Positions 8,884-35,191 of a stretch of 38,305 nucleotides of DNA are shown in pieces. Below the pieces are notes generated by a model. It searched no databases. It was not told the DNA's origin and saw nothing but the letters and a program-made list of their open reading frames with translations. Position 1 is the first letter of the stretch, and each line of letters begins with the position of its first letter. The stretch comes from an uncultured Pelagibacteraceae bacterium. Its GTDB lineage: Bacteria > Pseudomonadota > Alphaproteobacteria > Pelagibacterales > Pelagibacteraceae. The stretch covers positions 1 through 38,305 of the forward strand of contig CABZHM010000012.1 of NCBI GenBank assembly GCA_902525625.1. Direction: 5' to 3'. Both the position numbers and the translations under genes were made by a program.

Positions 8884-9822
8884 TTATATTCTGATTTTTT
8901 TAAGGATCTCAATTGTTTTTAATATTGAAAAACTAAGATTTAAATTATCCTTATAATAATTTAAATCCGATTTAAGCATGTCGTTAAATGCTAAATTAAT
9001 TTGATTGGCTTTTTTTATCTTTAAAATTTTGTTTTTGGTACGTAAAAATTTTATTTCTGCATTTTGAATTATTTTTTTTGAAAAAATAAATTTAACTTCC
9101 ATTTTACCATTTGTGCCTATGATTGTAATATAGTTCTTATATAATGACTTAAAACCCCATGCTAATTTAAAAAGAACTTTATTTTCGTTTTCAGCAGTTA
9201 AATCTCCTCTAATATCTAATCTATTTTCTTTTATAATTTTTTTTTTTAAAATATTTATTTTTTTTGAGTTAAATAAAGTAAACATTATTGATATAGGGTA
9301 AAATCCAACATCGTTTATCGCACCGCCTCCCATTTTCTCTGAAAAGCGGAAATTATTTTTTTCTTTTAGTGGTATTTTAAATTCCGATTCTACTTTTTTA
9401 ATATTACCAATAAGTTTTTTTTTTAAAATTGTCTTTAATCTTAAAAATACCGGATGATGTTTATATTGTATTATTTCAAAAAATCTGACTTTATTTATTT
9501 TTGAAATTTTTACTAATTGTCTTAATTGGGAAGTTTCTAAACAAATTGGTTTTTCACATATAACATTGATTTTGTTTTGTAATGCAAATTTGATATTTTT
9601 GAAATGATCAGAGTTTCTTGAGGAAATATAAACAAAATCAATATCTTTTTTTGATTTTAACTCATCTTTATTTTTTAACCATTTAACATTTCTAAAATCT
9701 TTATTTTTGTTAATTTTTCTAGTTAAAATATATTTTATCTTAATATTTTTGTTATCTTTAATACTTGGAAAAACTTTATTTTGAAAATGATTACTAAAAG
9801 ACCATATTGCAAGTTTGTACAT
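8884..9822 (-). CDS. Gfo/Idh/MocA-family oxidoreductase, candidate NDP-sugar 3-ketoreductase
   Basis: This 312-residue member of the Gfo/Idh/MocA family has an N-terminal NAD(P) fold and a C-terminal substrate domain. It shows the family's CEKPI motif with its Lys (K91), and GGGAINDVGFYPI at the start of the catalytic domain. Relatives such as UrdT, LanT and SpnN reduce the 3-keto group straight after a 2,3-dehydratase in dideoxysugar pathways. The 2,3-dehydratase gene lies directly upstream, coupled by TAATG (stop 9824-9822, start 9822), so the same role is inferred. Oddity: the N-terminal glycine motif (usually G-x-G-x-x) reads AIWSFSNHF, with no glycine. The nucleotide site has therefore changed or the enzyme has degenerated. 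It is the last gene of the minus-strand island operon. Confidence 0.8.
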   Translation of the reverse strand: MYKLAIWSFSNHFQNKVFPSIKDNKNIKIKYILTRKINKNKDFRNVKWLKNKDELKSKKDIDFVYISSRNSDHFKNIKFALQNKINVICEKPICLETSQLRQLVKISKINKVRFFEIIQYKHHPVFLRLKTILKKKLIGNIKKVESEFKIPLKEKNNFRFSEKMGGGAINDVGFYPISIMFTLFNSKKINILKKKIIKENRLDIRGDLTAENENKVLFKLAWGFKSLYKNYITIIGTNGKMEVKFIFSKKIIQNAEIKFLRTKNKILKIKKANQINLAFNDMLKSDLNYYKDNLNLSFSILKTIEILKKIRI

Positions 9823-10529
9823 TATATAAAAGAAACCAAAGTTCTTAAATGAGGATTTACAATTGCATTTTCTAAAATTAATTCTTTAATTTGGTTCAAA
9901 GTAATCCATTTAAAATCAGATCCAATTTTGACCTTACTTTTTCCAATGTGTTCAACTAGAATTCCAAGATTTCTCTTGTTTTTAAGTCTTCCTCCTTCTT
10001 CAGACACCCACTGTTTAAAGATGACTTTGCAATTATTTTTTTTTGGATATTTAAAATATTTTAAATATTTTACCTCTCTACCTCCATGAGATCTCTCGAT
10101 GTTACTAAACGTAGCTTGAACCGTAGGGCTTAATTGAATAAATTTATAATTACCAGGTTCAAATTTTGCATTAACTAGATAGTGCGGTGATTTGTTTATA
10201 TCTTTTTTCAAAAGGCCTAATATTCCACCATCATAGCCGGGTTCTGTGAACATTGGTTGATCCCAACCTTTATTTACTTCTCTTTTAAAACTTTTAATCA
10301 CTCTTACTCCCTCTACTCTATAAAAGGAGCCAGTAGTGTGGGTCATTTGTCCTTTAGCATTTATTTTCCAATTATTACATTTATTAAGAGGTATGGTTTT
10401 GATTTTTATTTTAGATTTTTTTATTATATTACTATACCAGTTCTTGATATCTTTAATCGAATTAAGAGATTTATAGTTACCAGATAATTCATTTCTTAGT
10501 TTAAGTATTTCGTTTTTTTTAGTTTTCAT
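9822..10529 (-). CDS. NDP-hexose 2,3-dehydratase, single-repeat form
   Basis: This enzyme family removes the 2-hydroxyl from NDP-4-keto-6-deoxyglucose to start 2,6-dideoxysugar synthesis (TylX3, EvaA, SpnO). Conserved blocks are visible: MTHTTGSFYRVEGVRV, WDQPMFTEPGYDGGILG, NAKFEPGNYKFIQLSPTVQATFSN, SEEGGRLKNKRN, WITLNQIKELILENAIVNPHLRT. Characterised members are about 450-480 residues with two homologous halves. This one is 235 residues and has one half only, with intact genes on both sides, so it is a naturally short form that probably works as a homodimer. Its start overlaps the methyltransferase stop (ATGA, 10526-10529). Confidence 0.88.
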   Translation of the reverse strand: MKTKKNEILKLRNELSGNYKSLNSIKDIKNWYSNIIKKSKIKIKTIPLNKCNNWKINAKGQMTHTTGSFYRVEGVRVIKSFKREVNKGWDQPMFTEPGYDGGILGLLKKDINKSPHYLVNAKFEPGNYKFIQLSPTVQATFSNIERSHGGREVKYLKYFKYPKKNNCKVIFKQWVSEEGGRLKNKRNLGILVEHIGKSKVKIGSDFKWITLNQIKELILENAIVNPHLRTLVSFI

Positions 10530-11707
10530 AAAATTTTTGGGGATGGAACATGAGTAATAAATCTACCACCTCTATCGATGAATTTTTTTTCCTTTTTAAA
10601 TATTTCATCTTTAAAATTCCATGCCCCTAAAAAGGCATAGTCCACATTACTTGGTATACCGTTATATCTTTTTATAGGGATGTGAGTACCAGGGGTAAAT
10701 TTACCAGCTTTTGTTGGGGTAGTATCTAAAAAATATTTTATAAATTTTTTATCTATCTTACAAAAATTTAGGACTGTGCTCGATTTGTAGGTAGCACCAT
10801 ATCCTATTATGTTTTTTTTTTCTTTTTTTATTTTTTGAAAAATTTTTATCAGATTTTTTCTTGATCTCAAAACTTTCTTGGCAAAAATTCGATAAGTTTG
10901 TAAATTATTTATTCCAAAATTTTTTTCTTTTAATAAATGTTTATTTACATTATTTGAAATTTTAATTGTTTTGTTATTAATTTTTTTAAAATACACTCTG
11001 TTTGAGCCACCATGAGTTTTAAGTTCTTCAATATTAAATACCTCTAAACCACTTTGTTTAGTAATATTTTTTAGTGCAGTTATTGAAAATACATAAGCAT
11101 GTTCATCATAAAATTGATCATAAGATAATTTTTGAAGAGACTTTAATAAAGAGGGATCCTCAAGAATGAAAATTCCATTGGAATTAAGTGAATTTTCTAT
11201 AGCTTTAAAAGTCTCATTTAAATTATGAATATGGCTAATTGTGTTAGCGGAATAGATTATATCAAATTTCCCATGTCTACTTAAAATTCTATTAGATAAG
11301 TGAAATGTCCAAAATTTGTCATAAGTTTTAATTTTCATTTTTGAGGTTAGATCTGCCAAATTTTTACAAGGCTCAACCCCTATATTATTTATGTTTGAAA
11401 AATATTTTATAAAGACACCATCATTACTACCAATTTCTAAAATTGATTTAGGTTTAAACTTTTTTTTTATTTTATTAGCTAAATTTCTATATGCTTTTTG
11501 CATTGTTATGGATGCTGATGCTCTGTGAGCATATTTATCATTAAACATTTTTTTTGGGGGTACAAAATTATCTAAAGAGACTAATTTAGTTTCTTTATGA
11601 TAAATCAGTTTTAGATTATAAAAAAATTCATTTTTTGGTTTATTGGTTTTCAAAAAATTGTTTGTTATTGGATGTTTTCCTAAGTTTAAAAAACTAATTT
11701 TTTTCAT
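10526..11707 (-). CDS. NDP-sugar C-methyltransferase (TylC3/TcaB9-like)
   Basis: This is a three-part sugar C-methyltransferase of 393 residues. It has an N-terminal domain (1-80), a SAM-binding domain with SILEIGSNDG (about 88-97) and DIIYSANTISHI, and a C-terminal domain with YDEHAYVFS, THGGSNRVYF, GYGATYKSSTVLNF and the ending GRFITHVPSP. This architecture belongs to enzymes that add methyl to C-3 of NDP-4-keto-(2,)6-deoxysugars (mycarose, tetronitrose; Coxiella virenose is linked to a homologue). Normally the N-terminal domain holds a CxxC...CxxC zinc site. Here LIYHKETKLVSL replaces the second pair, and the protein begins past the first, so the zinc ligands are missing. The start is fixed by ATGA overlap with the rmlD-like gene (11704-11707). 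Confidence 0.88.
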   Translation of the reverse strand: MKKISFLNLGKHPITNNFLKTNKPKNEFFYNLKLIYHKETKLVSLDNFVPPKKMFNDKYAHRASASITMQKAYRNLANKIKKKFKPKSILEIGSNDGVFIKYFSNINNIGVEPCKNLADLTSKMKIKTYDKFWTFHLSNRILSRHGKFDIIYSANTISHIHNLNETFKAIENSLNSNGIFILEDPSLLKSLQKLSYDQFYDEHAYVFSITALKNITKQSGLEVFNIEELKTHGGSNRVYFKKINNKTIKISNNVNKHLLKEKNFGINNLQTYRIFAKKVLRSRKNLIKIFQKIKKEKKNIIGYGATYKSSTVLNFCKIDKKFIKYFLDTTPTKAGKFTPGTHIPIKRYNGIPSNVDYAFLGAWNFKDEIFKKEKKFIDRGGRFITHVPSPKIL

Positions 11708-12414
11708 ATATTAATAATCTTCTTGAGCTTATTTGTATTCATACTCGTGTTAATTCCAATCAAATTCTTAGATTTGTTACTTATCTTAATTTTTTTTACA
11801 TTTGCATTTAGTTCTTTTGCAAAGTTGTAAGCACTTTGAATTTTCCCCCCAATATTTATTATTCCTTTTTTGTTTAGAAGTTTTAAAGTTAATCTTGCTG
11901 CGTCAGTTTTTTTCATAAAGCAGGATAGATAATCACTAAAAGCCGATTTGTGTGGAAAATTATCATCGTTCATACAAACTCTCAGGATCAACGAATTTTT
12001 ATAAATATGGCATGCACATTCACCTCCAAGTTTGGACCAACCATATTCGTTAAAGGGCATTAAATAATTTTTTTCTGTATAGTTCCCTTGTTTTCCTGGG
12101 TAAACAAAATTAGTTGAAATGTAAATAAGTTTAATTTTTTTTTTAATACATGCCAGGGTAACATTAGCAGTTCCCACTATATTGGTTAAAATACTTTTTT
12201 CTAATTTCTTTTTATGGTCAATCATAGGTGTTGAAAATGCAGCTGCATGAATAAAATAATCTACCTTTTTTTTCTTGATAAAATTAGTTATCGAGGACAA
12301 ACTATTTATATTCATCTCATTCTTATCAGGAGCAATGATTTTGTACTTTGAATTAACTTTTTTGATTGCTTGAGCAAATTTTCCTTGACCTCCTGAAATT
12401 AGAATTGTTTTCAC
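11704..12414 (-). CDS. RmlD-like short-chain reductase, NDP-4-ketosugar reductase
   Basis: This NAD(P)-dependent extended SDR of the dTDP-4-dehydrorhamnose reductase family probably reduces the 4-keto group in the last sugar-nucleotide step. Seen: the nucleotide motif ILISGGQGKFAQAI at the N terminus, IHAAAFSTPM, the Ser of STNFVYPG, and YGWSK as the catalytic Tyr-xxx-Lys. At 236 residues it is shorter than typical RmlD (about 290). A longer frame opens at 12477, but GTG 12414 is preferred. It places the first beta strand of the Rossmann fold at the terminus and overlaps the rmlC-like TGA as GTGA, matching the 4-nt overlaps elsewhere in this operon. Confidence 0.82.
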   Translation of the reverse strand: MKTILISGGQGKFAQAIKKVNSKYKIIAPDKNEMNINSLSSITNFIKKKKVDYFIHAAAFSTPMIDHKKKLEKSILTNIVGTANVTLACIKKKIKLIYISTNFVYPGKQGNYTEKNYLMPFNEYGWSKLGGECACHIYKNSLILRVCMNDDNFPHKSAFSDYLSCFMKKTDAARLTLKLLNKKGIINIGGKIQSAYNFAKELNANVKKIKISNKSKNLIGINTSMNTNKLKKIINI

Positions 12415-12887
12415 GATAATATATATTCTTTTAAATTTTTGTCTTTCTTGGATAAATTTGGTCTTCTTATATTCCATTTGATTTTAAATTTTTTATCATT
12501 CCAAATAAATCCACTACTATTTTTAATTGAGTATTTTTTATTTAATAGATAAAGAACTGTATTTGATTTACCTAAGCACGAATAGCCATGTGCAAATCCT
12601 TTTGGTATAAAAAGGACATCATTTTTTTTTAAATTGTGGTAAAAAATTTTCCCAAAATCTTTACCTTTGTTTAAATTTACTGTGACATCGAAAATTTTAC
12701 CGTCAATTATATAAACCAACTTTTCTTCATCCATATTTTTATTAAAATGCATACCTCTTAGAACATTTTTTCTTGAATTTGTTAGGATACTGTAAGAAAA
12801 TTTTGAAACTATTAATTTTGAAGTTATCTCTATTAGATATCCACGCGTATCTTTAAACAACTTACTTTTATATTTAATCGGAAGCAT
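12411..12887 (-). CDS. RmlC-like dTDP-4-keto-6-deoxyhexose epimerase
   Basis: This is a cupin-fold epimerase of the dTDP-sugar 3,5-epimerase family, 158 residues. It has the N-terminal FKDTRGYLIEI, the RGMHF motif with the catalytic base candidate His47, GKIFDVTVNLNKG, FIPKGFAHGYSCLG, and the FIWND...IKWNI end that marks the family. It is about 20 residues shorter than RmlC. In dideoxysugar pathways this family also works as a 5- or 3-epimerase (TylK, EvaD types), so the stereochemistry cannot be called. Its presence means the final sugar is probably L-configured or otherwise epimerised. It lies 5 nt after the rmlA-like gene. Confidence 0.85.
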   Translation of the reverse strand: MLPIKYKSKLFKDTRGYLIEITSKLIVSKFSYSILTNSRKNVLRGMHFNKNMDEEKLVYIIDGKIFDVTVNLNKGKDFGKIFYHNLKKNDVLFIPKGFAHGYSCLGKSNTVLYLLNKKYSIKNSSGFIWNDKKFKIKWNIRRPNLSKKDKNLKEYILS

Positions 12888-12892
12888 CTATT

Positions 12893-13759
12893 TCAAATTA
12901 AATTTTTTAAATACTGAGAATATTTACTGTTTCTGTTAAATCTAATTCTATTCAAAATATTTTTTTTGGTTATCCATTTGTTATTTAAAGCAATTTCCTC
13001 TAAACAGCCAATCTTAAAGCTTTGTCGACTTTCAATATTTTGAATAAAATTGTTAGCACTATGTAGATCATGAAAATTACCCACATCCATCCAAGCTGAT
13101 CCTCGACCAAGCTTGACAACACTTAACCTTCTTTTTTTTTTATAAAAATTTATTAAATCAACAATTTCTATTTCACCTCTTTTTGAAGGTTTGAGTTTTT
13201 TTGCATATTCAGAAACGTTTTTGTCGAAAACATAAAGTCCGGTAATAATCAAATTTGAATTAGTTTTTTTTGGTTTTTCAACAATACGTTTTACTCTATT
13301 TTTTCTGTCAAATTCTACCACTCCATATGCTGAGGTATTATTACTTGGATAAAGGTATATATTACAACCAAGAGTTTTTTTAAAAGAGTTTCTTATAATA
13401 GGTGATAGCATATTTCCATAAAAAAAATTATCACCAAGTATCATTGCCACAGATTCATTATGAATAAATTTTTGAGATAAAATAAATGCATCTGGAAGAC
13501 CTCTTGGCTCAGATTGCACAATATATTTTATCTTAATACCCAAATCTTTTTCATCACCTAACGATTTCTTAAAATTGACCTCTTGTCTCTCGTTAATTAT
13601 GAAAATAAATTCTTTAATTCCAGAAAGCATCATTAAAGACAACGGATAATAAAACATTGGTTTATCGAATAAAGGAATTAATTGTTTATTCATCGACTTG
13701 GTTACAGGAAACATTCTTGAACCTGTGCCTCCACATAATATTATTGCTTTTTTAATCAA
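12893..13759 (-). CDS. rmlA: Glucose-1-phosphate thymidylyltransferase
   Basis: RmlA joins glucose-1-phosphate and dTTP to make dTDP-glucose, the entry step for deoxysugars. The 288 residues carry the nucleotide motif GGTGSRMFPVTKSMNKQLIP (about 10-29), KPMFYYPLSLMMLSGI, ILGDNFFYG with the metal-binding Asp, YGVVEFDRKNRVKRIVEKP, TGLYVFD and AWMDVGNFHDLHSAN. Length is normal. Its ATG overlaps the rmlB stop by 8 nt. In the cluster it supplies dTDP-glucose to the dehydratase next to it. Confidence 0.95.
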   Translation of the reverse strand: MIKKAIILCGGTGSRMFPVTKSMNKQLIPLFDKPMFYYPLSLMMLSGIKEFIFIINERQEVNFKKSLGDEKDLGIKIKYIVQSEPRGLPDAFILSQKFIHNESVAMILGDNFFYGNMLSPIIRNSFKKTLGCNIYLYPSNNTSAYGVVEFDRKNRVKRIVEKPKKTNSNLIITGLYVFDKNVSEYAKKLKPSKRGEIEIVDLINFYKKKRRLSVVKLGRGSAWMDVGNFHDLHSANNFIQNIESRQSFKIGCLEEIALNNKWITKKNILNRIRFNRNSKYSQYLKNLI

Positions 13760-14777
13760 TTAAACCGAGCCTTTTGTAGTTATAGGTTTTGTGAGTACTT
13801 TTTAACCAATTTTTGTTATTTAGATACCAATTAATTGTATCTTCTAACCCAACTTTTAAACTTTTTTGTATTTTATAATTGATTATTTTTTTAAAGAAAT
13901 TTGTATTAAGTGCATATCTTTCGTCATGGCCAGGTCTGTCTCTTACAGTTCTTAAAAATTTTTTTTTACTCAGCTCTGTCAATCCTTTTGACTTCATTAT
14001 TTTAAAAATGATAGTTGCAATTTTTATATTAGAAACTCGTAAACTTGAACCAATATTGATCTTTTTAAAATTTTTCTTAGACATTATTGTTTTTAAAATG
14101 GCCTCACAACTATCTTTTACATGTATCCATTCTCTAATATTTTTACCTTTACCATAAATAGGCGCTGGTTTATTTTTTAGGTAATGTAAAATTAAAGTTG
14201 GTATAAACTTTTCCGGATATTGATAGGGTCCATAATTGTTCGAAAGATTAATAATTTTAATATTTGTTTTATAGGTTCTGTTAAATGATGACGCGATAAG
14301 ATCTACGCTACCCTTTGAGGCAGAATAAGGTGATGAAGGATCATAAGGATCAGTTTCCTTTGAATATCCTTTAATGAGGGATCCATATACTTCATCAGTA
14401 GAAATATGAAAAAATTTTATTTTCTTGATTTTTAAATAATGAGAGTAGGCAAAAAAAAGATTTATCGAAAGATTTATATTATTTTTGATAAAATTGAGAG
14501 GATCATTTATTGATCTATCAACATGACTTTCGGCCGCAAAATTTATTATCAAATCAGGTCTAAATTTTTTAATAGTATCCAAAATTTTTTTATAGTTCTT
14601 AAGATCATCTTTGATGAAAAAATATTTATTTGGATATTTAATTATTTTGAACCTTTCAGGGGTGGAAATTTCAGACAATTTATCGATGTTTAATATTTTG
14701 TAATTTTTGGATGAAACTAAATTTACAAAGTTTGTACCAATAAACCCCGAACCACCTGTAATTAAAATTTTTCTCAT
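13752..14777 (-). CDS. rmlB: dTDP-glucose 4,6-dehydratase
   Basis: RmlB converts dTDP-glucose to dTDP-4-keto-6-deoxyglucose. It is an extended SDR with the N-terminal NAD motif ILITGGSGFIGTNF, NFAAESHVDRSI, the catalytic STDEVYGS (Asp-Glu pair) and YSASK (Tyr-Lys), then NNYGPYQYPEKFIP and GKGKNIREWIHV, all typical of RmlB. The frame is open further upstream to 14804, but ATG 14777 is chosen. It begins MRKILITGG as the family does and overlaps the glycosyltransferase TGA as ATGA (14774-14777). That gives 341 residues. Confidence 0.95.
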   Translation of the reverse strand: MRKILITGGSGFIGTNFVNLVSSKNYKILNIDKLSEISTPERFKIIKYPNKYFFIKDDLKNYKKILDTIKKFRPDLIINFAAESHVDRSINDPLNFIKNNINLSINLFFAYSHYLKIKKIKFFHISTDEVYGSLIKGYSKETDPYDPSSPYSASKGSVDLIASSFNRTYKTNIKIINLSNNYGPYQYPEKFIPTLILHYLKNKPAPIYGKGKNIREWIHVKDSCEAILKTIMSKKNFKKINIGSSLRVSNIKIATIIFKIMKSKGLTELSKKKFLRTVRDRPGHDERYALNTNFFKKIINYKIQKSLKVGLEDTINWYLNNKNWLKSTHKTYNYKRLGLID

Positions 14778-15583
14778 TTTCGATCTATCTTTGGCCGATA
14801 CCAAGGTTCTTTTAATATATATGAATTATATAATCCACTAATTCTAGCTAAATATATTTCTTTTTGTGTAGAATTTTTTGAGTAAATTATTAGTCTTATT
14901 AATGATCGTATTAAATAAGGTAAAGTTGATATAAAAGAGTAAATGTAACCGTAATATTTTTTTTTGTAGTAAAATTTAGACCACATAAGATGCCAATTCC
15001 TATTTACTTCAACAGGATGATTAAATCTTTTATCATGGGATCCTAGTTTGTTAGAATATTTGATAGGTACTTGGTAAATATTAATTTTTTCCTTTAAAGC
15101 TCTTCTTAAAAAATCTGCATCTTCATAGTATAAAAAAAATTTTTCATCAAAGCCTGATAGTTTAAGAAATATTTTTTTTTCTATAAAAAAACACAACATG
15201 CCTCTAGTTTCTTTAATTTTTTCAACATTGGCTGGACAATTATTCTCGTCTGAAAGTATAAAAACACTAGATTTATCATTAAATTTTTCATTAAGACTCT
15301 CAAGTTTTTTTATAGAGTTTTTTTCTACAAAATTATCAGGACTACAAAAAAGAATATTTTTAGTTTTTGTTAATTTTGCACCAAGATTTGCGGCCTGTCC
15401 AAAACCATAATTTTTATTTAAAATTATCTCAACGTTCTTATATTTTTTTTCTATTTTATTCTTTAATGAGAGATTTTGTGAATTTTCTATTACTATAATT
15501 TTTGTATTTTCATCATAAGATTTTATGTTGGGTTCAATTAGATGTTCACTTTCATACGAAACTATAATTACTGTGGTGTTCAT
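14774..15583 (-). CDS. GT2-family glycosyltransferase (WbbL/rhamnosyltransferase-like)
   Basis: This is a family 2 inverting glycosyltransferase, 269 residues, cytoplasmic. It shows the GT-A start TVIIVSYESEHLI, NKNYGFGQAANLGAKL, and FFLYYEDADFLRRA, the WbbL-type signature with the probable catalytic Asp. The usual N-P-D metal motif is present as CSPDN. It is the first gene of the island operon and presumably transfers the deoxysugar made by the following seven genes to a lipid-linked or LPS acceptor. WbbL relatives move dTDP-L-rhamnose, a close chemical relative of the predicted product. Its promoter must lie in the 60 nt before tRNA-Ser. No signal peptide; one hydrophobic stretch near residue 220 may be a membrane contact. 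Confidence 0.88.
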   Translation of the reverse strand: MNTTVIIVSYESEHLIEPNIKSYDENTKIIVIENSQNLSLKNKIEKKYKNVEIILNKNYGFGQAANLGAKLTKTKNILFCSPDNFVEKNSIKKLESLNEKFNDKSSVFILSDENNCPANVEKIKETRGMLCFFIEKKIFLKLSGFDEKFFLYYEDADFLRRALKEKINIYQVPIKYSNKLGSHDKRFNHPVEVNRNWHLMWSKFYYKKKYYGYIYSFISTLPYLIRSLIRLIIYSKNSTQKEIYLARISGLYNSYILKEPWYRPKIDRK

Positions 15584-26874: not shown

Positions 26875-27807
26875 ATGGCGAATAAGATTATCTTTATGGG
26901 TACTCCATTATTTTGTGTTCCTATTCTTAAATCTCTACATCAAAATGGTTATAATATTACGACGACATATACTCAACCACCACAAAAATCTCACAGAGGG
27001 CAAAAAATAAATAAAAGTCCAATACAAAATATCTCGGAAACTTTAAATATAGAATGTAGAACACCGAAGACTTTTAAAAATAATTACGAAGAGTATAAAT
27101 TTTTAAAAAAGTTAGATGCCGATCTTGCAATAGTTTGCGCTTACGGTCAAATCATTCCAAAAAATTTTTTAAACTTAACTAAAAAAGGTTTTGTTAATAT
27201 ACATGCTTCAATTCTTCCCTACTGGCGAGGAGCAGCGCCAATTCAAAGATCAATTATGAACTTAGACTCTGAGACAGGAATAAGTATCATGAAGATAAAT
27301 GAGGAATTAGATAGTGGACCAGTAAGCAATATATATAAAATTAAGATAGGTCAAAACCAAAATGCTGAAGAAATTTCTGAAATACTTTCTGTTTTGGCTG
27401 CAGAAAAAATTTTAGGGAATGTAGATGATATACTTACAAATAAAGCCAAATTTATTGACCAAGATCATTCAAAAGCAAGTTATGCAAAAAAAATTCGTAA
27501 AGATGAATCTCAAATTGATTGGAGTGATGATGCCTCTAAAATTATCGCCAAAATCAATGGTTTATTTCTGTCCCCAGGTGCTTTTTTTAGTTTTAATGAT
27601 GAAAGATACAAAATTTTGAAAGCTGTAGTTGGAAATGGTGCAGGTCAAGTTGGAGAAGTAATTTCAAATAAGTTAGAAATAGCATGTAAGAATAATCATT
27701 CTATTAAAATTCTTGAAATTCAGAGAGAAGGAAAAAGACCACAAAAAATTAGTGAATTTATGCTGGGCTCTAAAATCAAAAAAGGCACAAATTTATTATA
27801 TGTTTAG
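26875..27807 (+). CDS. fmt: Methionyl-tRNA formyltransferase
   Basis: Fmt formylates Met-tRNA-fMet using 10-formyl-THF. The 310 residues begin KIIFMGTPLFCVPIL, contain VCAYGQIIPKNFL and the catalytic/folate-binding NIHASILPYWRGAAPIQRSI (Asn and His), GISIMKINEELDSGP with the catalytic Asp, and a C-terminal OB-like tRNA-binding domain from about residue 205. Length is normal. Its end overlaps the truA start by 8 nt. Confidence 0.97.
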   Translation: MANKIIFMGTPLFCVPILKSLHQNGYNITTTYTQPPQKSHRGQKINKSPIQNISETLNIECRTPKTFKNNYEEYKFLKKLDADLAIVCAYGQIIPKNFLNLTKKGFVNIHASILPYWRGAAPIQRSIMNLDSETGISIMKINEELDSGPVSNIYKIKIGQNQNAEEISEILSVLAAEKILGNVDDILTNKAKFIDQDHSKASYAKKIRKDESQIDWSDDASKIIAKINGLFLSPGAFFSFNDERYKILKAVVGNGAGQVGEVISNKLEIACKNNHSIKILEIQREGKRPQKISEFMLGSKIKKGTNLLYV

Positions 27808-28540
27808 ATATCAGATCTTAATTGAATACGTGGGTACCAATTTTAGGGGATGGCAAATTCAAAAAAAAGGAAAAACAGTTCAGGGAATATTGCAGGACGA
27901 AATTTCGAAATTATTAAAAGAAAAAGTTACAATATTTGGAGCTGGACGATTAGATGTTGGCGTTCATGCAAAGGAACAATCAGCTCATTTTGATTGTAGA
28001 AATAAGATTATTAAATTTGATAAATTTTTAAAATCAATAAATCATTTTTTGAATAAAGATGGAGTAGCAATACTTAAGATTAAAAAAAGAAGTAATAATT
28101 TTCATGCTAGATTTTCAGCTAAAATGAGAGTTTATAATTACGTGATAATAAATCGGGTCAGCGGACCAGTTTTGGATGAAAATAGGGGTTGGCATATTAT
28201 GAAAAATCTTGATTTAAAATTAATGAGAAAAAGTGCAAAAAAATTAATAGGAACTATGGATTTTAGTACTTTTAGAAAATCTAGTTGTAGAGCTAAAAGT
28301 CCGATAAAGACTATTAAAGTCGTAAAAATCAAATACAAAAAAAATAAGATAGAAATAGAATTTAGGTCAAAATCTTTTTTACAACAGCAGGTACGGTCAA
28401 TGGTTGGTTGTTTAAAATATGTTGGGGAAAAAAAATGGACATTAAAAAAATTTGTTAATGTTATAAATTCTAAAAAAAGATCACTATGTGCCCCACCTGC
28501 ACCATCACAAGGCCTCTATTTAACTAGAGTTATTTATTAA
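27800..28540 (+). CDS. truA: tRNA pseudouridine(38-40) synthase
   Basis: TruA makes pseudouridine at positions 38-40 of tRNA anticodon arms. The 246 residues begin FRYQILIEYVGTNFRGWQIQ and carry GAGRLDVGVHAKEQSAHFD, which holds the catalytic Asp. The usual Thr before it is Leu here. Later come NFHARFSAKMRVYNYVI and QQQVRSMVG. The frame is open back to 27713, but ATG 27800 is preferred: it gives the family N terminus and a short ATG-in-stop overlap with fmt. The 3' end overlaps the SET-domain gene tail to tail by 21 nt. Confidence 0.95.
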   Translation: MFRYQILIEYVGTNFRGWQIQKKGKTVQGILQDEISKLLKEKVTIFGAGRLDVGVHAKEQSAHFDCRNKIIKFDKFLKSINHFLNKDGVAILKIKKRSNNFHARFSAKMRVYNYVIINRVSGPVLDENRGWHIMKNLDLKLMRKSAKKLIGTMDFSTFRKSSCRAKSPIKTIKVVKIKYKKNKIEIEFRSKSFLQQQVRSMVGCLKYVGEKKWTLKKFVNVINSKKRSLCAPPAPSQGLYLTRVIY

Positions 28541-29014
28541 TTTTTTTTTATTACTCATCGCAAATTTACGATGAATTCTCCATCGACTTTCCTCACGAAT
28601 TATAAAGCCACAACAATTATTTGATTTACATTTACAAGGAAATTGTTTGTAATCTTCTTTATCAAAACTAAAACCATAATCACAAGTTATCTCTTCACCT
28701 TTCTTAATATCTTTATCAGCTGTAATCCAAATTTTTAAACCCTTTCCATCATAACGAGCGTTTGGATCGCAACTATGATTAACTAATCCAGCAATATTAA
28801 ATGAGAAGTCACCATCCAAAGTATATTTTCTATTCAAAGTAAAAAGGTAAATAGGTTTTTTATTGTCATATTTGTCTGACTCTTCTACCTCTTTATTTGT
28901 AATTATTTTTCCTAAGTAATTAATAATTTTTGTACCTTCTGTGATATCTTTGGTAGCATAGAGTCCACGACCTTTGTTATCAATTTTAGATTTTTTTATT
29001 TTGTATAATTTCAT
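28520..29014 (-). CDS. SET-domain protein (putative lysine methyltransferase)
   Basis: This is a compact SET-domain protein of 164 residues. SET enzymes move methyl from SAM to protein lysines. Visible are GRGLYATKDITEGTKII (SET-I start), LVNHSCDPNARY (the SAM-binding NHS motif), KKGEEITCDYGFSF with the catalytic Tyr region, and a post-SET Cys cluster in FPCKCKSNNCCGFI that would bind zinc. The catalytic residues are intact, so activity is plausible; the substrate is unknown. It is the last gene of the rpmH-to-dap operon, 30 nt after the HDAC-like gene, so methylation and deacetylation enzymes sit together. Confidence 0.88.
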   Translation of the reverse strand: MKLYKIKKSKIDNKGRGLYATKDITEGTKIINYLGKIITNKEVEESDKYDNKKPIYLFTLNRKYTLDGDFSFNIAGLVNHSCDPNARYDGKGLKIWITADKDIKKGEEITCDYGFSFDKEDYKQFPCKCKSNNCCGFIIREESRWRIHRKFAMSNKKKLINNSS

Positions 29015-29044
29015 GAATGTGATTTATAATGGAAGAGGTATTTA

Positions 29045-29968
29045 TCAATTAAATTCAACTAATGCATTAACATGCTCATTAGCACTTTCTGCTAAAGCAT
29101 TTAAATCATATCCACCCTCGAGTATAGAGACAACTTTACCTGCGGTAAACTTATTGGTAGCTGTTAATGTTCTTTTAGTAATCTCATAAAAATCTTTTGA
29201 ATTTAGTTGAAATTGAGCTAATGGATCATCTTTATGTGCATCAAAACCTGCTGAAAATAAAAGAAAATCTGGTTTATATTGAACTAATCTTTCTAACACC
29301 CTGTCAAATGCATTAAAGTACTCTTCTGAGTTTGTGCCAGCAGGCAAAGGGATATTTAATGAATTATTAAAATCTCCTTTATCTTTATCTGTTCCACCTC
29401 CAGGATAAAAAGGATATTGGTGCGTAGAAATATATAATGAATTTTTATTATTACGCATAACATCATAATTTCCGTTACCCCAGTGTACATCGAAATCTAT
29501 ACAGGCAATTCTTTTGTATTTATATTTAGCAACTAGATAGTTTGTTGCTACTCCTGCGTTTGATATACAACAAAATCCCATGGCTTTATTTTTTTCAGCA
29601 TGGTGCCCAGGTGGTCTAGCTAAACAGAATGCATTTTTAAATTGATTGCTCTCTATTCCATCTATTGCTCTTATTGTTGAACCTGCAGCATCAAAAACTG
29701 CTTTTTTACTTTCGGGTGATACAACTGTGTCGCCATCTAGAAACTTAAAGCCTTTTTGAGGAAAAGAATTTTTTAAATAATTTATATAGTCCTTTGAATG
29801 TGTCATAGACAAAATATCTTCAGGAACATTATCTGGCTTATCCCAGATTAAGTCTTTTCTTTTTTTTAATTTTTCTTTTATAACAATTACTCTTTTGGGC
29901 TGCTCAGGATGACCATCGCCAGTGTTATGTTTTTCATAAGAGACAGAATTTATGATCGCTGTTTTCAT
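29045..29968 (-). CDS. Histone deacetylase-family amidohydrolase (AcuC/HDAC-like)
   Basis: This is a zinc-dependent deacetylase of the arginase/HDAC fold, 307 residues. Relatives remove acetyl groups from protein lysines, polyamines or small amides. All active-site elements are present: LARPPGHHAEKNKAMGFC (the His pair), IDFDVHWGNG (zinc Asp and His), LFSAGFDAHKDDP (zinc Asp) and LEGGYDL (the transition-state Tyr). The start overlaps the dapE stop by 4 nt, consistent with the operon. The dap context could hint at an N-acyl substrate, and the SET neighbour at a protein substrate; neither can be decided here. Confidence 0.9.
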   Translation of the reverse strand: MKTAIINSVSYEKHNTGDGHPEQPKRVIVIKEKLKKRKDLIWDKPDNVPEDILSMTHSKDYINYLKNSFPQKGFKFLDGDTVVSPESKKAVFDAAGSTIRAIDGIESNQFKNAFCLARPPGHHAEKNKAMGFCCISNAGVATNYLVAKYKYKRIACIDFDVHWGNGNYDVMRNNKNSLYISTHQYPFYPGGGTDKDKGDFNNSLNIPLPAGTNSEEYFNAFDRVLERLVQYKPDFLLFSAGFDAHKDDPLAQFQLNSKDFYEITKRTLTATNKFTAGKVVSILEGGYDLNALAESANEHVNALVEFN

Positions 29969-31122
29969 TTAAAATAATTTATTAAAATATTTTCATAAAT
30001 TTTCTTAAGATTTTTTAAATCTTTTAAAGATACAGCTTCATCTACTTTATGCATCGTTTTTCCCACTAAACCGAATTCCAGACCAGTTGATATTTTTCTG
30101 ATAAATCTTAAATCTGAAGTTCCGCCTGAAGTAGATAACTTTGGTCTAATTTTTGTAACTTTTTTTACAATATTTTGTATCATATGTGTTGTTTCATTTG
30201 ACTTTGTTAGAAATGCTTCACCCGAAACTTTGTAATCAATTTTGAACTTTGACTTATTTTTTTTGTTAATTTTAATTAGAAACTTATTTAGTTTTCGTTT
30301 TAAAGATTTTGAGGAATGCTTATTATTAAACCTTATATTAAATGTTGCTTCGGCTGTTGCAGGTATAACATTATCAGCACTATTATCTATATATATTTTT
30401 GTCACCTCCAAGTTTGTAGGTTGGAAGTTTTTTGACCCTCTATCAAATTTAATATCTTTTAATTCTTTTAAAATTTTTACAATTATAGTTGAGGGATTAT
30501 TAGCTCTTTGCGGATATGCAACATGGCCCTGCAATCCAAATATAGTTAACCTACCAGTTAAACTCCCCCTACGTCCGATTTTTATCATCTCACCTAATTT
30601 GTTTGGATTTGTTGGCTCACCAACAAGACAAAAGTTAATTTTCTCTTTTCTTTTTTTTAAGTAATCTACAACCTTTTTGGTACCATTTACTGCATCACCT
30701 TCTTCATCACCTGTAATAAGTAAACTTATTGATCCGTTGAATTTTCTATTCTTAGATAAAAAAGTGCTTACAGCAGATACAAAAGCTGCAACTGAGCTTT
30801 TCATATCATTTGCACCTCGTCCAATTAAATGACCTTTTTTGATAGATGGTTTAAATGGATTTACTGTCCAATTCTTAATGTTTCCTGGATGTACAACATC
30901 AACATGTCCGGCAAACATAAAATTTGGCTTCTTAGATCCTAATCTTGCATACAAGTTTTTCACAGGTTGAAATCCTTTTTCCTTGAATTCCAATATTTTT
31001 GTTTTGAAACCAATTTTTTTTAATTTTTTTTCTAAAAATTTTATTACTCCAGCGTCAATTGGAGTGATGGAAGGAAATCTGATTAGCTCTTTAGCTAATT
31101 TTAACTCGTTTAAATTTTTCAT
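29965..31122 (-). CDS. dapE: Succinyl-diaminopimelate desuccinylase
   Basis: DapE hydrolyses N-succinyl-LL-DAP to LL-DAP for lysine and peptidoglycan. It is an M20 metallopeptidase of 385 residues. Metal ligands sit in FAGHVDVVHPG, GRGANDMKSS (bridging Asp), TGDEEGDAVNG (Glu pair) and GEPTNP. The ending region has STSGGTSDLRFI and GLVGKTMHKVDE with the last metal His. The dimerisation domain lies at about 180-295. It begins 2 nt after dapD, which acts two steps earlier in the same pathway. Confidence 0.96.
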   Translation of the reverse strand: MKNLNELKLAKELIRFPSITPIDAGVIKFLEKKLKKIGFKTKILEFKEKGFQPVKNLYARLGSKKPNFMFAGHVDVVHPGNIKNWTVNPFKPSIKKGHLIGRGANDMKSSVAAFVSAVSTFLSKNRKFNGSISLLITGDEEGDAVNGTKKVVDYLKKRKEKINFCLVGEPTNPNKLGEMIKIGRRGSLTGRLTIFGLQGHVAYPQRANNPSTIIVKILKELKDIKFDRGSKNFQPTNLEVTKIYIDNSADNVIPATAEATFNIRFNNKHSSKSLKRKLNKFLIKINKKNKSKFKIDYKVSGEAFLTKSNETTHMIQNIVKKVTKIRPKLSTSGGTSDLRFIRKISTGLEFGLVGKTMHKVDEAVSLKDLKNLKKIYENILINYFK

Positions 31123-31124
31123 TC

Positions 31125-31952
31125 TTAGTCTCTTAAGAGGTCGTTAATAGAAGTTTTAGATCTTGTTTTTTCATCAACTTGTTTAATTATTACTGCACAA
31201 TATAAGGAGGGTGAAGAAGAATTATTTTTATCAGGCAACGAGCCCGGAACTACAACTGAATAAGGTGGTATTTTACCATAAGTAATTTCTCCAGTTTTTC
31301 GATCAACTATTTTAGTTGATTGACCAATATACATGCCCATACTTAAAACTGAACCTTCTCCAACAATTACGCCTTCAACTACCTCGGACATTGCTCCAAG
31401 AAATACATTATCCTCTATAATTGTTGGTAAAGCTTGCGCGGGCTCTAAAACTCCACCAACGCCCGAACCTGCGGATATATGGCAATTCTTACCTATTTGA
31501 CAACAGCTACCAGCTCTTGCAAAAGTGTCTATCATTGTTCCTTCGTCAATATATGCTCCAATGTTGACGTAACATGGCATTAGAACAGCATTTTTTCCAA
31601 CAAATGAACCTCTTCTTACTGGTGAGTTCGGAACCATTCTAAAACCTGCTTTTTCATGATCAGCTTTGGTCCATCCTGCAGTTTTACCTTTTAATAAATG
31701 CGATTTATCAAACCAACTACTATAAGGACCATTCAAATTTTCCATAGGATAAATTCTAAAACTTAGCATTATAGCTTTCTTTAGGTGTTGATGAGTTACC
31801 CATTCTCCATTTATTTTCTCAGCAACTCTTGATTTACCACTATCTAAATCAGCAATAACTTGGTTAATAGCATCTTTTAAATTTTGATCAGAATTTTGGT
31901 TTACCTGATCTTTATTCTTCCAAGTATCATTGATTATTTTTTCTAAAGACAT
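31125..31952 (-). CDS. dapD: Tetrahydrodipicolinate N-succinyltransferase
   Basis: DapD succinylates tetrahydrodipicolinate in the succinylase branch of DAP/lysine synthesis. The 275 residues have an N-terminal helical domain, then a left-handed beta-helix built from hexapeptide repeats (about 105-215; [52 protein letters not shown]). The cap follows with [15 protein letters not shown]. Length and motifs fit DapD and not DapH. It lies between the HAD phosphatase (2-nt gap) and dapE (2-nt gap). Confidence 0.96.
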
Positions 31953-31954
31953 AA

Positions 31955-32644
31955 TTAATTACTTTTTAATAGCCTTATTTCTTTTAGAAATAAAGACAGA
32001 TTTTCGATTTTGTGTGAAATAAAATCTTTGTCTGCATCCATTTTTCCAAAATGCTCATCATTAATTAACCAAACAGTTGTACAACCTCGTTCGTGACCTA
32101 TACTTAAATTTTTAGCTATATCTTCAATGTAAATAGTCTCTTTAGGATTTATACCAAATTTTTTAACCATCAAGTCGAAGGTTTCTGCCTCCGGCTTAGG
32201 TACATAACCAGCATCTTTAATATCAAAAACCTTATCTCTTCCAAATAAATCATAAATACCCAGATGAGTTAAAATATTAGCAGCATGTTCGGCACTACCA
32301 TTGGTGAAGATAAATTTTTCCATGTCTAATTGTTTAAGCTCATTTCTCATAATTTTATCTTCTTTCATAAACGATAAATCAATTTCATGAACGTAGGATA
32401 AAAATTCATCTGGTGATATCCCATTATGGACCATTAATCCTCGTAATGATGTATTGTACTTATAGAAATAATTTGTTTGTAATTCTTTAGCTTTATCTTC
32501 ATCAATTTTAAGTTTTTCAGATATAAATTGTGTCATTCTCTTTGAGACTTGACCAAATACGCGCTCTAAAGAATAGTTGTTGTGCTTTCCATAACAAACA
32601 CCATCAAGATCAAGTAGCAGATATTTTTTTTCTTTAAAGTTCAT
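31955..32644 (-). CDS. HAD-family phosphatase (pyrimidine 5'-nucleotidase-like)
   Basis: This is a HAD hydrolase of 229 residues resembling the SDT1/pyrimidine 5'-nucleotidase group. Motif I is [11 protein letters not shown] (nucleophile and acid Asp), motif [11 protein letters not shown], motif III Lys in [10 protein letters not shown], and motif [14 protein letters not shown]. The helical cap lies at about 20-110. Start ATG 32644 is chosen over the open frame to 32695 because it overlaps the argB TGA as ATGA and puts motif I at the usual distance from the N terminus. The substrate is uncertain. Its place between argB and dapD suggests co-expression more than pathway membership. Confidence 0.85.
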
Positions 32645-33489
32645 TTTCTTATTAATGTACCTGATCCCTTGTCTGAAAAAATTTCCCACAAACAAGAGTG
32701 TTGTTTTGTCCCATTAATTATACCTGCTGCTGTAACTCCATTATTAACAGCCTCTAGACAAGCATTTATTTTAGGTATCATTCCTCCAGTAATTGTCTCA
32801 TCTTTTATCATTTCTAAAATCTCAGATGAAGATATCTCATCTATAAGTTTCTTTTTTTTATTTAAAACACCATCAACATTTGTCATCAATAATAATCTTC
32901 TTGACCTGACAGATTTGGCTATAGCCATTGCAGCAGTATCACCATTGATATTGTGTGTTTGATTATTTTTATCTAAGCCTAATGGAGAAATAATTGGTAC
33001 TCTATTTTGCTTAATATTGTCTAATAAAATATTGTTATTAATTTCATTTGGTAGACCGACAAAACCAAGCTCTTTTGATATTGGTACTACCTCAATAATA
33101 TTATCTTTTTTAGTATGAATTGAGAATGCCTTTATATCTTTTTTCTCTAAAGAGTTAACAATATCATTATTAAAATCTATTAAAACTGACTCAACAACAT
33201 TTATAATTTTTTCATCAGTTACTCTTAGTCCTCTTATAAATTTCGATTGAATGTTAGATTTATCTAATTCTCTTTTTATTCTTGGACCTCCTCCATGAAC
33301 AACAATAACCGAGAGTCCTAATTTATTCAAAATACTTAAGTCAGTAATAAAATTATCGAAAATACCTCTATCAATTAAAACGTTCCCTCCGTATTTAATA
33401 ACTATTAATTCATTTTTATATTTTTCAATGTATTTATTAACTTCATTAATTGGAGGCCCGTTTTCAGGAAGTATTTTTTTTAAGTCCAT
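32641..33489 (-). CDS. argB: Acetylglutamate kinase
   Basis: ArgB phosphorylates N-acetylglutamate in arginine synthesis. The 282-residue amino acid kinase shows LIVIKYGGNVL (N-terminal Lys), VIVVHGGGPRIKREL, the substrate-binding FIRGLRVTDE, ISPLGLD, NINGDTAAMAIA, LLLMTNVDGVLNKKK and TGGMIPKINACLEAVNNGV, plus AGIINGTKQHS near the end. These are all in family order. The N-terminal arm of about 25 residues resembles arginine-regulated hexameric ArgB forms. It lies 22 nt after yidC. Confidence 0.96.
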   Translation of the reverse strand: MDLKKILPENGPPINEVNKYIEKYKNELIVIKYGGNVLIDRGIFDNFITDLSILNKLGLSVIVVHGGGPRIKRELDKSNIQSKFIRGLRVTDEKIINVVESVLIDFNNDIVNSLEKKDIKAFSIHTKKDNIIEVVPISKELGFVGLPNEINNNILLDNIKQNRVPIISPLGLDKNNQTHNINGDTAAMAIAKSVRSRRLLLMTNVDGVLNKKKKLIDEISSSEILEMIKDETITGGMIPKINACLEAVNNGVTAAGIINGTKQHSCLWEIFSDKGSGTLIRK

Positions 33490-33511: not shown

Positions 33512-35191
33512 TTAGGTTGTCGTTTTTACAGTTGTTCTTCTCATAATAAATACTTGCTGAGCCATTGTTAAAATATTATTCACTGTCCAGTAAATAACTA
33601 AACCACTTGGGAAGGGTGCAAGTATTACAGTTAAGAAAAGTGGAAAGAAAGCAAAAATTTTAGCCTGCATTGGATCAGTAGGTGCAGGATTTAATTTTTG
33701 TTGTACCCACATTGAAACTCCCATCGCTACTGGCCAAGCCCCAATAACCAAAAAACTTGGAACATCATAAGGCAGAAAACCAAACAAATTGAAAATGCTA
33801 GTTGGGTCACGCTCACTTAAGTCGGCGATCCATCCATAAAATGGCATTTGTCTCATTTCAATAGTTACAAACAAAACCTTATATAAAGCGAAGAATACCG
33901 GAATCTGCACGAGTATCGGTAAACAACCTGACATAGGGTTTACTTTTTCTTTTTTATATAAAGCCATCATTTCTTGTTGAAGTTTCATTTTATCATTTTT
34001 ATGTAACTCTTTTAAACGAACCATTTCTGGTTGAAGCACTTTCATTTTTGCCATGCTTTTAAATGAAAAGTTGGCCAATGGGAAAAAAACCAAACGAATA
34101 CAAATAGTGATAGCTATAATCGCTAAACCATAGTTTCCAAGTAGTTTAAAAAAATAATCAATTCCGTAAAATAAAGGCTTAGTTATGAAGTATAAAAAAC
34201 CCCAATCAATTACTAAATCAAATTTATCAATATTCAACGACTGAGCATAGCCATCAATTACATCTACTCTTTTTGCAGCAACAATAATTTGTAATTCCTC
34301 CTCGATAGAGCTTTTTTCATTTAATGCCAAAGGGTCTGTTGAAATAAAATTCGCTCTAAATTTATTTTTATAGTCAAATGTTGTTTTAAACTCTTTGTTT
34401 TTTGGTGGTATTAAAGAAGTAATCCAATATTTATCACTTATTCCTAGCCACCCTCTAGTCGCAACTTTAGTAAATTTTTTTTCCTGAATGTCATCATAAT
34501 CCTCTTCTATTAGCTCCCCGTCCAAAGTTGCAATTAGACCTTCATGAAGAATCAGAAAATCAATAATTTCTGGAATTTCATTTCTTATTATTTGTCCGTA
34601 CGAATAAAAGTCATATTTATTACTACTCTCGTTTATTACCTTTTGTTTAATTGTAAAAAGATATTCATCATCTAATGATATTATTTTTTCAAACTTTAAA
34701 CCCTGATTGTTGGTCCACGAAAGTTTAATTGGAGAATTTTCTGTAAGTTTGTTATCACCCTCTATTGACCAAATTGTATCTGAATTAGGGACATCAATAT
34801 TTTTATCAGAAGTAACAAACCCACTTTCTATAAGATATCCCTCTTTTATATTTCTTGGTCCTAATAAATTTACTCTCTGTTCACTATTAAGGGTTACTTT
34901 ATAATTTTTAAAAGTTAAATCATCTATTGATGCACCTTTTAATGATATTGAACCTATAATGTTATTATTTTCAAACTGAATTCTCTCACTTTGTTTTAAT
35001 GCTTCTTCTCGCGAAATTGTAATTTGAGTTTCCTTCTGTTCTAAACTTGGTGCATCACCACTTTGTTCAACTTTTTCTTTTTCAATTAAATTTTGTTGTA
35101 TATTTTTTTGTTCTGGTACAAAAAATAAAGAATATAGAACTATTACCGCAGAGGATAACGCTATTGCAGCTATGACATTTTTTGAGTCCAT
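33512..35191 (-). CDS. yidC: Membrane protein insertase YidC
   Basis: YidC inserts and folds inner-membrane proteins with or without Sec. The 559-residue Gram-negative form has an N-terminal anchor (about 5-25), a periplasmic beta-sandwich domain (about 55-330), and a five-helix insertase core from about 350. The core includes WGFLYFITKPLFYGIDYFF, IRLVFFPLANFSFKSMAKM with the cytosolic hydrophilic-groove Arg, ALYKKEKVNPMSGCLPILVQ, and YWTVNNILTMAQQ. The ATG shares a base with the yidD stop (35191). This belongs to the conserved rpmH-rnpA-yidD-yidC run. Confidence 0.96.
   Translation of the reverse strand: MDSKNVIAAIALSSAVIVLYSLFFVPEQKNIQQNLIEKEKVEQSGDAPSLEQKETQITISREEALKQSERIQFENNNIIGSISLKGASIDDLTFKNYKVTLNSEQRVNLLGPRNIKEGYLIESGFVTSDKNIDVPNSDTIWSIEGDNKLTENSPIKLSWTNNQGLKFEKIISLDDEYLFTIKQKVINESSNKYDFYSYGQIIRNEIPEIIDFLILHEGLIATLDGELIEEDYDDIQEKKFTKVATRGWLGISDKYWITSLIPPKNKEFKTTFDYKNKFRANFISTDPLALNEKSSIEEELQIIVAAKRVDVIDGYAQSLNIDKFDLVIDWGFLYFITKPLFYGIDYFFKLLGNYGLAIIAITICIRLVFFPLANFSFKSMAKMKVLQPEMVRLKELHKNDKMKLQQEMMALYKKEKVNPMSGCLPILVQIPVFFALYKVLFVTIEMRQMPFYGWIADLSERDPTSIFNLFGFLPYDVPSFLVIGAWPVAMGVSMWVQQKLNPAPTDPMQAKIFAFFPLFLTVILAPFPSGLVIYWTVNNILTMAQQVFIMRRTTVKTTT

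Follow-up and report, generated by a model that had tools for sequence, protein, structure and literature searches.

SET-domain methyltransferases are best known from chromatin and as secreted effectors. For prokaryotes, the part of PMC3980110 available to us describes stand-alone members such as NUE of Chlamydia, RomA/LegAS4 of Legionella, BaSET and the archaeal Go1-SET, a non-effector that acts on the chromosomal protein MC1-alpha. Excerpts of two further papers list a SET-domain gene among those of the flexible phosphate islands of HIMB59 (PMC10734472) and a SET-domain protein as ORF62 of Stenotrophomonas phage Ps15 (PMC9025141), so that a SET gene in a phage is in itself no novelty, and an HDAC-family (histone deacetylase) gene cluster is already on record in SAR11, in "all except IMCC9063", according to a section of PMC3686209. 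Here, we investigated a SET-domain gene and the HDAC-family gene beside it in an uncultured Pelagibacteraceae bacterium, on a stretch of 38,305 nucleotides (nt) that we call the window (assembly GCA_902525625.1, contig CABZHM010000012.1, positions 1 to 38,305). The source genome is ~1.06 Mb in size, with an assembly that is 86% complete. In the reading we favor, to which we assign a probability of roughly 0.72, the two genes encode independent lysine-modifying enzymes, the SET gene is mobile single-gene cargo, and their adjacency is inherited synteny rather than the mark of a writer/eraser module. The enzyme families themselves are known; what is new is that phages have this SET gene too and that it moves independently of the HDAC gene. 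The elements in question are the following:

28520..29014, minus strand: SET-domain protein lysine methyltransferase (predicted), 164 aa, with a post-SET Cys cluster and a basic C-terminal tail
29015..29044, minus strand: HDAC-SET intergenic spacer, 30 nt
29045..29968, minus strand: class-II-type HDAC-family deacetylase, 307 aa, HW-type allele (DVHWGNGNY)

Like NUE, RomA/LegAS4, BaSET and Go1-SET, the window SET is predicted to be a small SET-domain lysine methyltransferase in a prokaryote; unlike them, it occurs in a SAR11-type bacterium, is nearest by sequence to KMT2-type SET plus post-SET domains, and has homologues in phage contigs. With the phage-encoded Ps15 ORF62, as described, it shares the SET domain, and a partial literature search for SET in SAR11 or pelagiphages found no description apart from the HIMB59 island paper (PMC10734472). 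Like the SET of that island it is a cargo gene that varies between genomes, whereas its place is beside dapE and the HDAC gene and that of the island gene at a pst/pho island. The HDAC resembles the cluster 1 class-II-type enzymes treated in the available part of PMC11532494 (5ji5 of Burkholderia phymatum, the lysine deacylase 5zmp, K. pneumoniae HdaH) in its catalytic residues, its RPPGHH and EGGY motifs and its fold, and it shares a Leu gatekeeper with HDAC6 CD2. It differs from the class-II-type HDACs of the sister family and of most wider loci, which lie by xseB, in its place by dapE, and from the usual HH next to the Zn-binding His in being an HW allele.

The initial annotation had placed the two genes side by side, 30 nt apart, and had raised the possibility that they form one lysine-modification module, perhaps acting on ribosomal or nucleoid proteins. 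The coordinates, the spacing and the families were all correct, and the pair recurs well beyond the window genome. In a family sample of 147 Pelagibacteraceae genomes, with adjacency defined as SET within 200 nt of an HDAC, a SET match was present in 72 genomes and an HDAC family match in at least 131, and the two genes were adjacent in 31 of the 72 SET-bearing genomes, so that the case in which they are neighbors only here does not hold. The underlying table drew on the 72 SET rows in full and on 45 of the HDAC rows (SET-bearing genomes, dap-type level; the HDAC of G105 is in two pieces, of which one was entered), and fragmented assemblies can hide genes, as in G046 and G011, which have SET while HDAC is absent among the matches listed. 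Adjacency was concentrated in the window's genus (g1, 25/26; SET matches in 26 of its 27 genomes), followed by g4 (4/27) and the single genomes of g10 and g14 (1/1 each), and was absent from g3 (0/5), g6 (0/4), g9 (0/7) and g11 (0/1). When 80 of 400 relatives of the SET gene were kept from a named collection, all were titled Pelagibacteraceae, Pelagibacterales or Candidatus Pelagibacter, with identities of up to 96%; an HDAC open reading frame (ORF) was found on 79 of these 80 SAR11 loci, separated from SET by 29–34 nt in 78 of the 79 and by 886 nt in L200.

Outside the family the arrangement does not recur. SET was present in 51 of 58 genomes of an order sample, and within the fetched 9–12.5 kb of the sister family HDAC was found in 0 of 20 SET loci. 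In a class-wide sample of 241 genomes (SET at E 1e-8, HDAC at E 1e-40), SET was detected in 14, several of the matches being weak (down to E 9.9e-9), and among the 11 SET-bearing genomes outside Pelagibacteraceae, nine of which have a listed HDAC, adjacency was found in none (positions compared by eye). The pair is conserved in the window's genus, in fewer than half of the SET-bearing genomes of the family, and not in the sister family or the class; it does not stay together across lineages as a module would be expected to.

Even within the family, the two genes persist separately rather than as one unit. One such case is g4, where 23 of the 27 genomes with SET have it at the same site but show no dap-type HDAC match; SET lies directly after dapE in all 13 of those 23 for which gene order was read, and the HDACs that these 23 genomes do have (40–43% identity) lie on other contigs or, in G120, more than 200 kb away. 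In the genus-mate G051 the HDAC gene stayed with dapE and SET with truA, ~0.28 Mb apart, G093 has the HDAC with the SET match absent, and in several genera HDAC lies beside dapE where SET was not found. The alleles of the two genes have also recombined independently, identities to the window being 79% (HDAC), 51% (dapE) and 65% (SET) for G069, as against 62%, 77% and 77%, respectively, for G017. These separations, together with the phage copies of SET described below, speak against the idea that the pair forms one lysine-modification module.

The steady neighbor of HDAC is dapE, not SET. In an HDAC-centered survey of 20 loci chosen from ten genera, 18 had the HDAC within the dap cluster, 13 of these with dapE immediately before it, and the two exceptions were g4 HDACs of 41–42% identity at another place. 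In the sister family, 11 of 13 loci have the HDAC next to xseB (xseB confirmed for one), as do 10 of 12 loci with a demonstrable HDAC ORF in the wider alphaproteobacteria (labels by eye), the latter from a survey of 15 HDAC-centered loci in which L116, L119 and L123 were unresolved owing to overlapping ORF choice. A position beside xseB is thus common in the class, while Pelagibacteraceae have their HDAC by dapE. A quick HDAC tree, which has long branches and a rooting on a distant paralogue that we do not trust, was used for one split only, that of 35 dap-site rows from 30 others (sister family, wider alphaproteobacteria, HIMB59-like, and the two g4 HDACs located elsewhere), with an SH-like approximate likelihood-ratio (SH-aLRT) support of 99.

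The SET gene, by comparison, is found in shifting contexts: next to a gcrA-like gene in g9, clustered with sulfur-oxidation-like genes in g3 and in two of three g6 loci (names mostly by eye), and among surface-glycan-like genes in the sister family (mostly named by eye). In G201/G390, which we take to be HIMB59-like, the gene is 47–48% identical to that of the window and lies by pst/pho-like genes (mostly named by eye). At L127, L128 and L129 (G201/G390, G310), SET is located beside metallophosphoesterase/LpxH-like and glycosyltransferase-like genes with pst-type genes nearby, as named by eye or from the available part of PMC10734472, and SET may have a phosphate-linked role in these genomes. 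The HDAC/truA junction, for its part, holds other cargo in relatives, namely glycosyltransferases, an acetoacetate-CoA ligase and a tetratricopeptide repeat (TPR) protein.

Searching IMG/VR with the SET alignment, we recovered 11 contigs of two related phage types. The first (L227/L249) combines SET with DNA polymerase-, primase-, helicase-, DnaB- and head-protease-type genes, and its primase is 35% identical to the best match. The other ten contigs are 88–100% alike in DNA over long blocks; only one of them (L254) was annotated at length, with part of L235, and the others were assigned to the type by their DNA match to L254. In these two, helicase, DNA polymerase-type, primase-like, carbamoyltransferase and DnaB genes were recognized, with SET just after DnaB, and for both the DnaB and the helicase the nearest proteins, at 52–54%, come from large phages, PA5oct and Phosso among them. 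The DnaB proteins of the two types are ~69% identical, yet SET lies at different positions. The SET tree places the ten-contig type, represented by 5 rows, with two SETs of g3 (support 99/97) and puts L227 inside the clade of g1 (96/93). These two placements imply at least two transfers of SET between SAR11-type bacteria and phages, in either direction, with SAR11-type hosts predicted for the phages from the SET tree. No HDAC was found near SET in the fetched pieces of the phage contigs, and the window SET had 0 matches among the 50,697 records of named phages in INPHARED at E 1e-3; the HDAC matched 11 INPHARED records (22–30% identical) and 11 viral loci of IMG/VR (28–38%).

Two further genes of the SET phage contigs (L227/L249 and L228-L237/L250-L259) possibly serve base or glycan modification: one for a Nol-like carbamoyltransferase, which adjoins DnaB in L249 and L254, and one for an aminotransferase, seen in L235/L254. 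That two related phage types carry different SAR11-type SETs at different positions would fit a scenario in which SAR11 and its phages share a lysine methyltransferase as an auxiliary gene, infection benefits when a protein of the host or the virion is methylated, and the SAR11 copy is strongly selected; we put this forward tentatively, as a possibility against which the odds still lie.

As to what the SET protein does, its ORF matches PF00856 with an E value of 2.7e-24 and 86 bits (curated cut-off 22.4), and among solved structures it comes closest to the SET domains of KMT2D (4z4p, E 1.9e-21) and KMT2C. In an alignment of 40 rows chosen from 61 references, N79-H80-x-C82 (NHSC), Y113 and the post-SET cysteines C127, C129 and C134 are invariant (40/40), and N79, H80, C82 and Y113 are so again in 24 of 24 rows that include 4 phage copies. 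The NHxC motif, the Tyr and the post-SET Cys cluster have catalytic roles in SET methyltransferases, so with all three present the protein should methylate lysine(s) of a protein. It would act as a stand-alone enzyme, transferring methyl groups from S-adenosylmethionine to one or more lysines of some cellular protein, most likely an abundant component of the core machinery. No second SET match was found in the window genome, within its 86% complete assembly. SET matches with one or two in-frame stops were seen in G069, G101, G109 and G131 (g1), G058, G084, G135 and G141 (g4) and G119 (g3); the SET ORF of G069 is still 153 aa long (L103), which places its in-frame stop near the 3′ end. Some lineages may thus have a truncated SET protein or a SET gene in decay.

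The HDAC ORF matches PF00850 with an E value of 1.1e-79 and 268 bits (curated cut-off 27.9), and the active-site pair H122-H123, the Zn ligands D160, H162 and D243, and Y287 of EGGY are invariant in all 27 rows, chosen from 37, and align with HDAC6. For both proteins, the initial annotation was thus right to see intact active sites and lysine-modifying families, the two Pfam matches being far beyond chance. The predicted HDAC model (predicted local distance difference test, pLDDT, 87.5) has the HDAC fold, with 5ji5 as the best PDB match (template-modeling score, TM, 0.92); at 307 aa it is shorter than the 353-aa chain 9gkz, which hints that the dimer-forming L1/L2 loops of polyamine deacetylases may be absent. 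In the HDAC family, a Zn-activated water attacks acetyl-lysine. The window protein would accordingly be a widespread Zn-dependent deacetylase of SAR11 that, with its HDAC6-like residues, hydrolyzes protein acetyl-lysine. No sirtuin match was obtained in 18 of 18 SAR11/HIMB59-type genomes searched (control positive in 10 of 14), so that the HDAC family is the only one found of the two deacetylase classes searched for. Both genes are under strong purifying selection, with a ratio of nonsynonymous to synonymous substitution (dN/dS) of about 0.06: the median against named relatives is 0.064 for SET (NG86, 48 pairs) and 0.059 for HDAC (NG86, 62 pairs), computed on pairs of the window and a relative of equal length with dS > 0.2 only.

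The HDAC gene itself is variable at one conspicuous place. The residue after the Zn-binding His (HDAC ~158–169) differs among SAR11 dap sites, as compared in the window, L066, L095, L103 and L147-L226. The window type has W (DVHWGNGNY), most of the other sites have H, and Q, F or R occurs in L176, L200/L202 and L066. Among the 80 loci with a SET at least 80% identical, 62 were of HW and 12 of HH type and 6 of neither, the pattern in these six being missing or the HDAC absent or in pieces. HDAC alleles 57–66% identical to that of the window swap at one locus beside SETs that are at least 80% identical, and such interchange suggests diversified substrate use. A second, unlinked HDAC paralogue of the window genome (C10:44270-45016, L003) is 26% identical, reads DVHQGNGNS, and adjoins an MsrB-like and a dehydrogenase-like ORF (named by eye).

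The best-surviving alternative is that the HDAC is a small-molecule deacylase, acting on an acetylpolyamine or on an acyl-amino-acid with a relation to the dap/arg pathways. The long-standing place by dapE in a lysine/arginine gene run, the unusual allele diversity after the Zn-binding His, and a sub-cluster of mainly ApaH-annotated alphaproteobacterial enzymes in the accessible part of PMC11532494, which might include the window HDAC, all speak for it. Polyamine deacetylases carry a PEG (HDAC10) or PIS (cluster 4) gatekeeper motif according to the same part of that source, which also reports that replacing the HDAC10 gatekeeper Glu by Leu raised its lysine deacetylation. The window HDAC has neither PEG with its Glu nor the cluster 4 ApaH PIS, but PLA, with Leu at position 250 in 27 of 27 rows, which lowers the case for a polyamine specialist. 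Moreover, in fold and sequence it is matched best by HDAC6, by a lysine deacylase and by a Burkholderia member of the HDAC superfamily whose substrate is untested, and dapD/dapE already supply a succinyl route. We regard a small-molecule substrate as rather unlikely.

Less likely again is a role like that of AcuC, in which the HDAC would deacetylate the conserved lysine of AMP-forming acyl-CoA ligases and tune carbon use, SET being unrelated. An acetoacetate-CoA ligase gene is convergent with HDAC in L060, L061, L064 and L066 (g7, g9, g12), all four ligases have a C-terminal P-x-TKSGK motif (family tested for L061), AMP-binding ligase matches exist in the window genome, and AcuC and a cluster-4 enzyme act on acetylated AcsA, as stated in the part of PMC11532494 at hand. 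Set against this, the ligase is on the opposite strand and outside the operon, it is not at the site in the loci read from the window's genus, and the HDAC is of class-II type; AcuC identity is not favored, the best matches being class II proteins and 5ji5. The acyl-CoA ligase family is a possible target of the HDAC, as a lead and not a result.

Weakest is the module itself, in which the HDAC would clear acetyl groups, SET would then methylate those lysines on an abundant basic protein, and the dose of the two would be set by their operon: the adjacency in the window's genus, the near-constant spacing in 78 of 79 named loci, the constraint on both genes and the single deacetylase class found speak for it, but with SET standing without the dap-type HDAC in g4 and alone in phages, HDAC without SET in several genera, the genes parted in G051, SET missing among the matches of G093, alleles recombining separately and no recurrence in the sister family or the class, we no longer favor it, given the surveys of family, order and class, and consider it improbable.

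We thus return to two independent enzymes brought together by inherited synteny, in which the HDAC gene is a long-standing neighbor of dapE, and the SET gene, as mobile cargo, is parked in the window's genus where HDAC and truA converge, lies elsewhere in other SAR11 lineages and has been exchanged with phages. Several points weigh against this reading. In the window's genus the pair is nearly always together (25/26) with a nearly constant 30-nt gap, which would equally be expected of a functional pair. Resolution at the base of the SET tree is poor, so that the notion of mobile cargo draws on differing gene contexts and the two phage placements, and relocation within SAR11 could explain much of it. 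The inner fork at L227 has a support of only 85/75. The AlphaFold2 model of SET, with a pLDDT of 47, was used for no search, and the whole reading builds on predicted activities and predicted phage hosts.

The remaining genes around the pair in the window are:

29965..31122, minus strand: dapE, with a 4-nt overlap with the HDAC start; the usual neighbor of HDAC across the family
31125..31952, minus strand: dapD
31955..32650, minus strand: pyrimidine 5′-nucleotidase-like HAD protein, start taken at 32650
32641..33489, minus strand: argB
33512..35191, minus strand: yidC
27713..28540, plus strand: truA, convergent, start uncertain, its 3′ end overlapping the SET 3′ end by 21 nt

On the minus strand the order is yidC, argB, pyrimidine 5′-nucleotidase, dapD, dapE, HDAC and SET with gaps of -10 to +30 nt, which bears out the earlier description of the pair as the end of a run with dap, arg and yidC genes. 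SET and HDAC are probably co-transcribed in the window genome, since they share the strand and are separated by a 30-nt gap. Upstream of yidC lie yidD and an RNase P protein-like ORF (named by eye; NCBIfam match absent). At some distance, the minus strand at 8884-15583 carries a run of sugar/glycan-type ORFs (epimerase-, nucleotidyltransferase- and methyltransferase-like by eye), probably a surface-polysaccharide island.

For the interpretation of gene order, the locus carries a caution: adjacency in an operon is not the same as a module, and the SET-HDAC pair is probably a case of inherited synteny. SET-bearing and SET-lacking SAR11, and host and phage copies, offer a natural comparison for finding the target of the SET enzyme. 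If host and virus do use the enzyme as an auxiliary function, one of the ocean's most abundant bacteria would have a eukaryote-like SET protein-methylation layer employed by both. A conserved, constrained and phage-moving SET in the streamlined SAR11 would show SET-type lysine methylation working inside ordinary bacteria.

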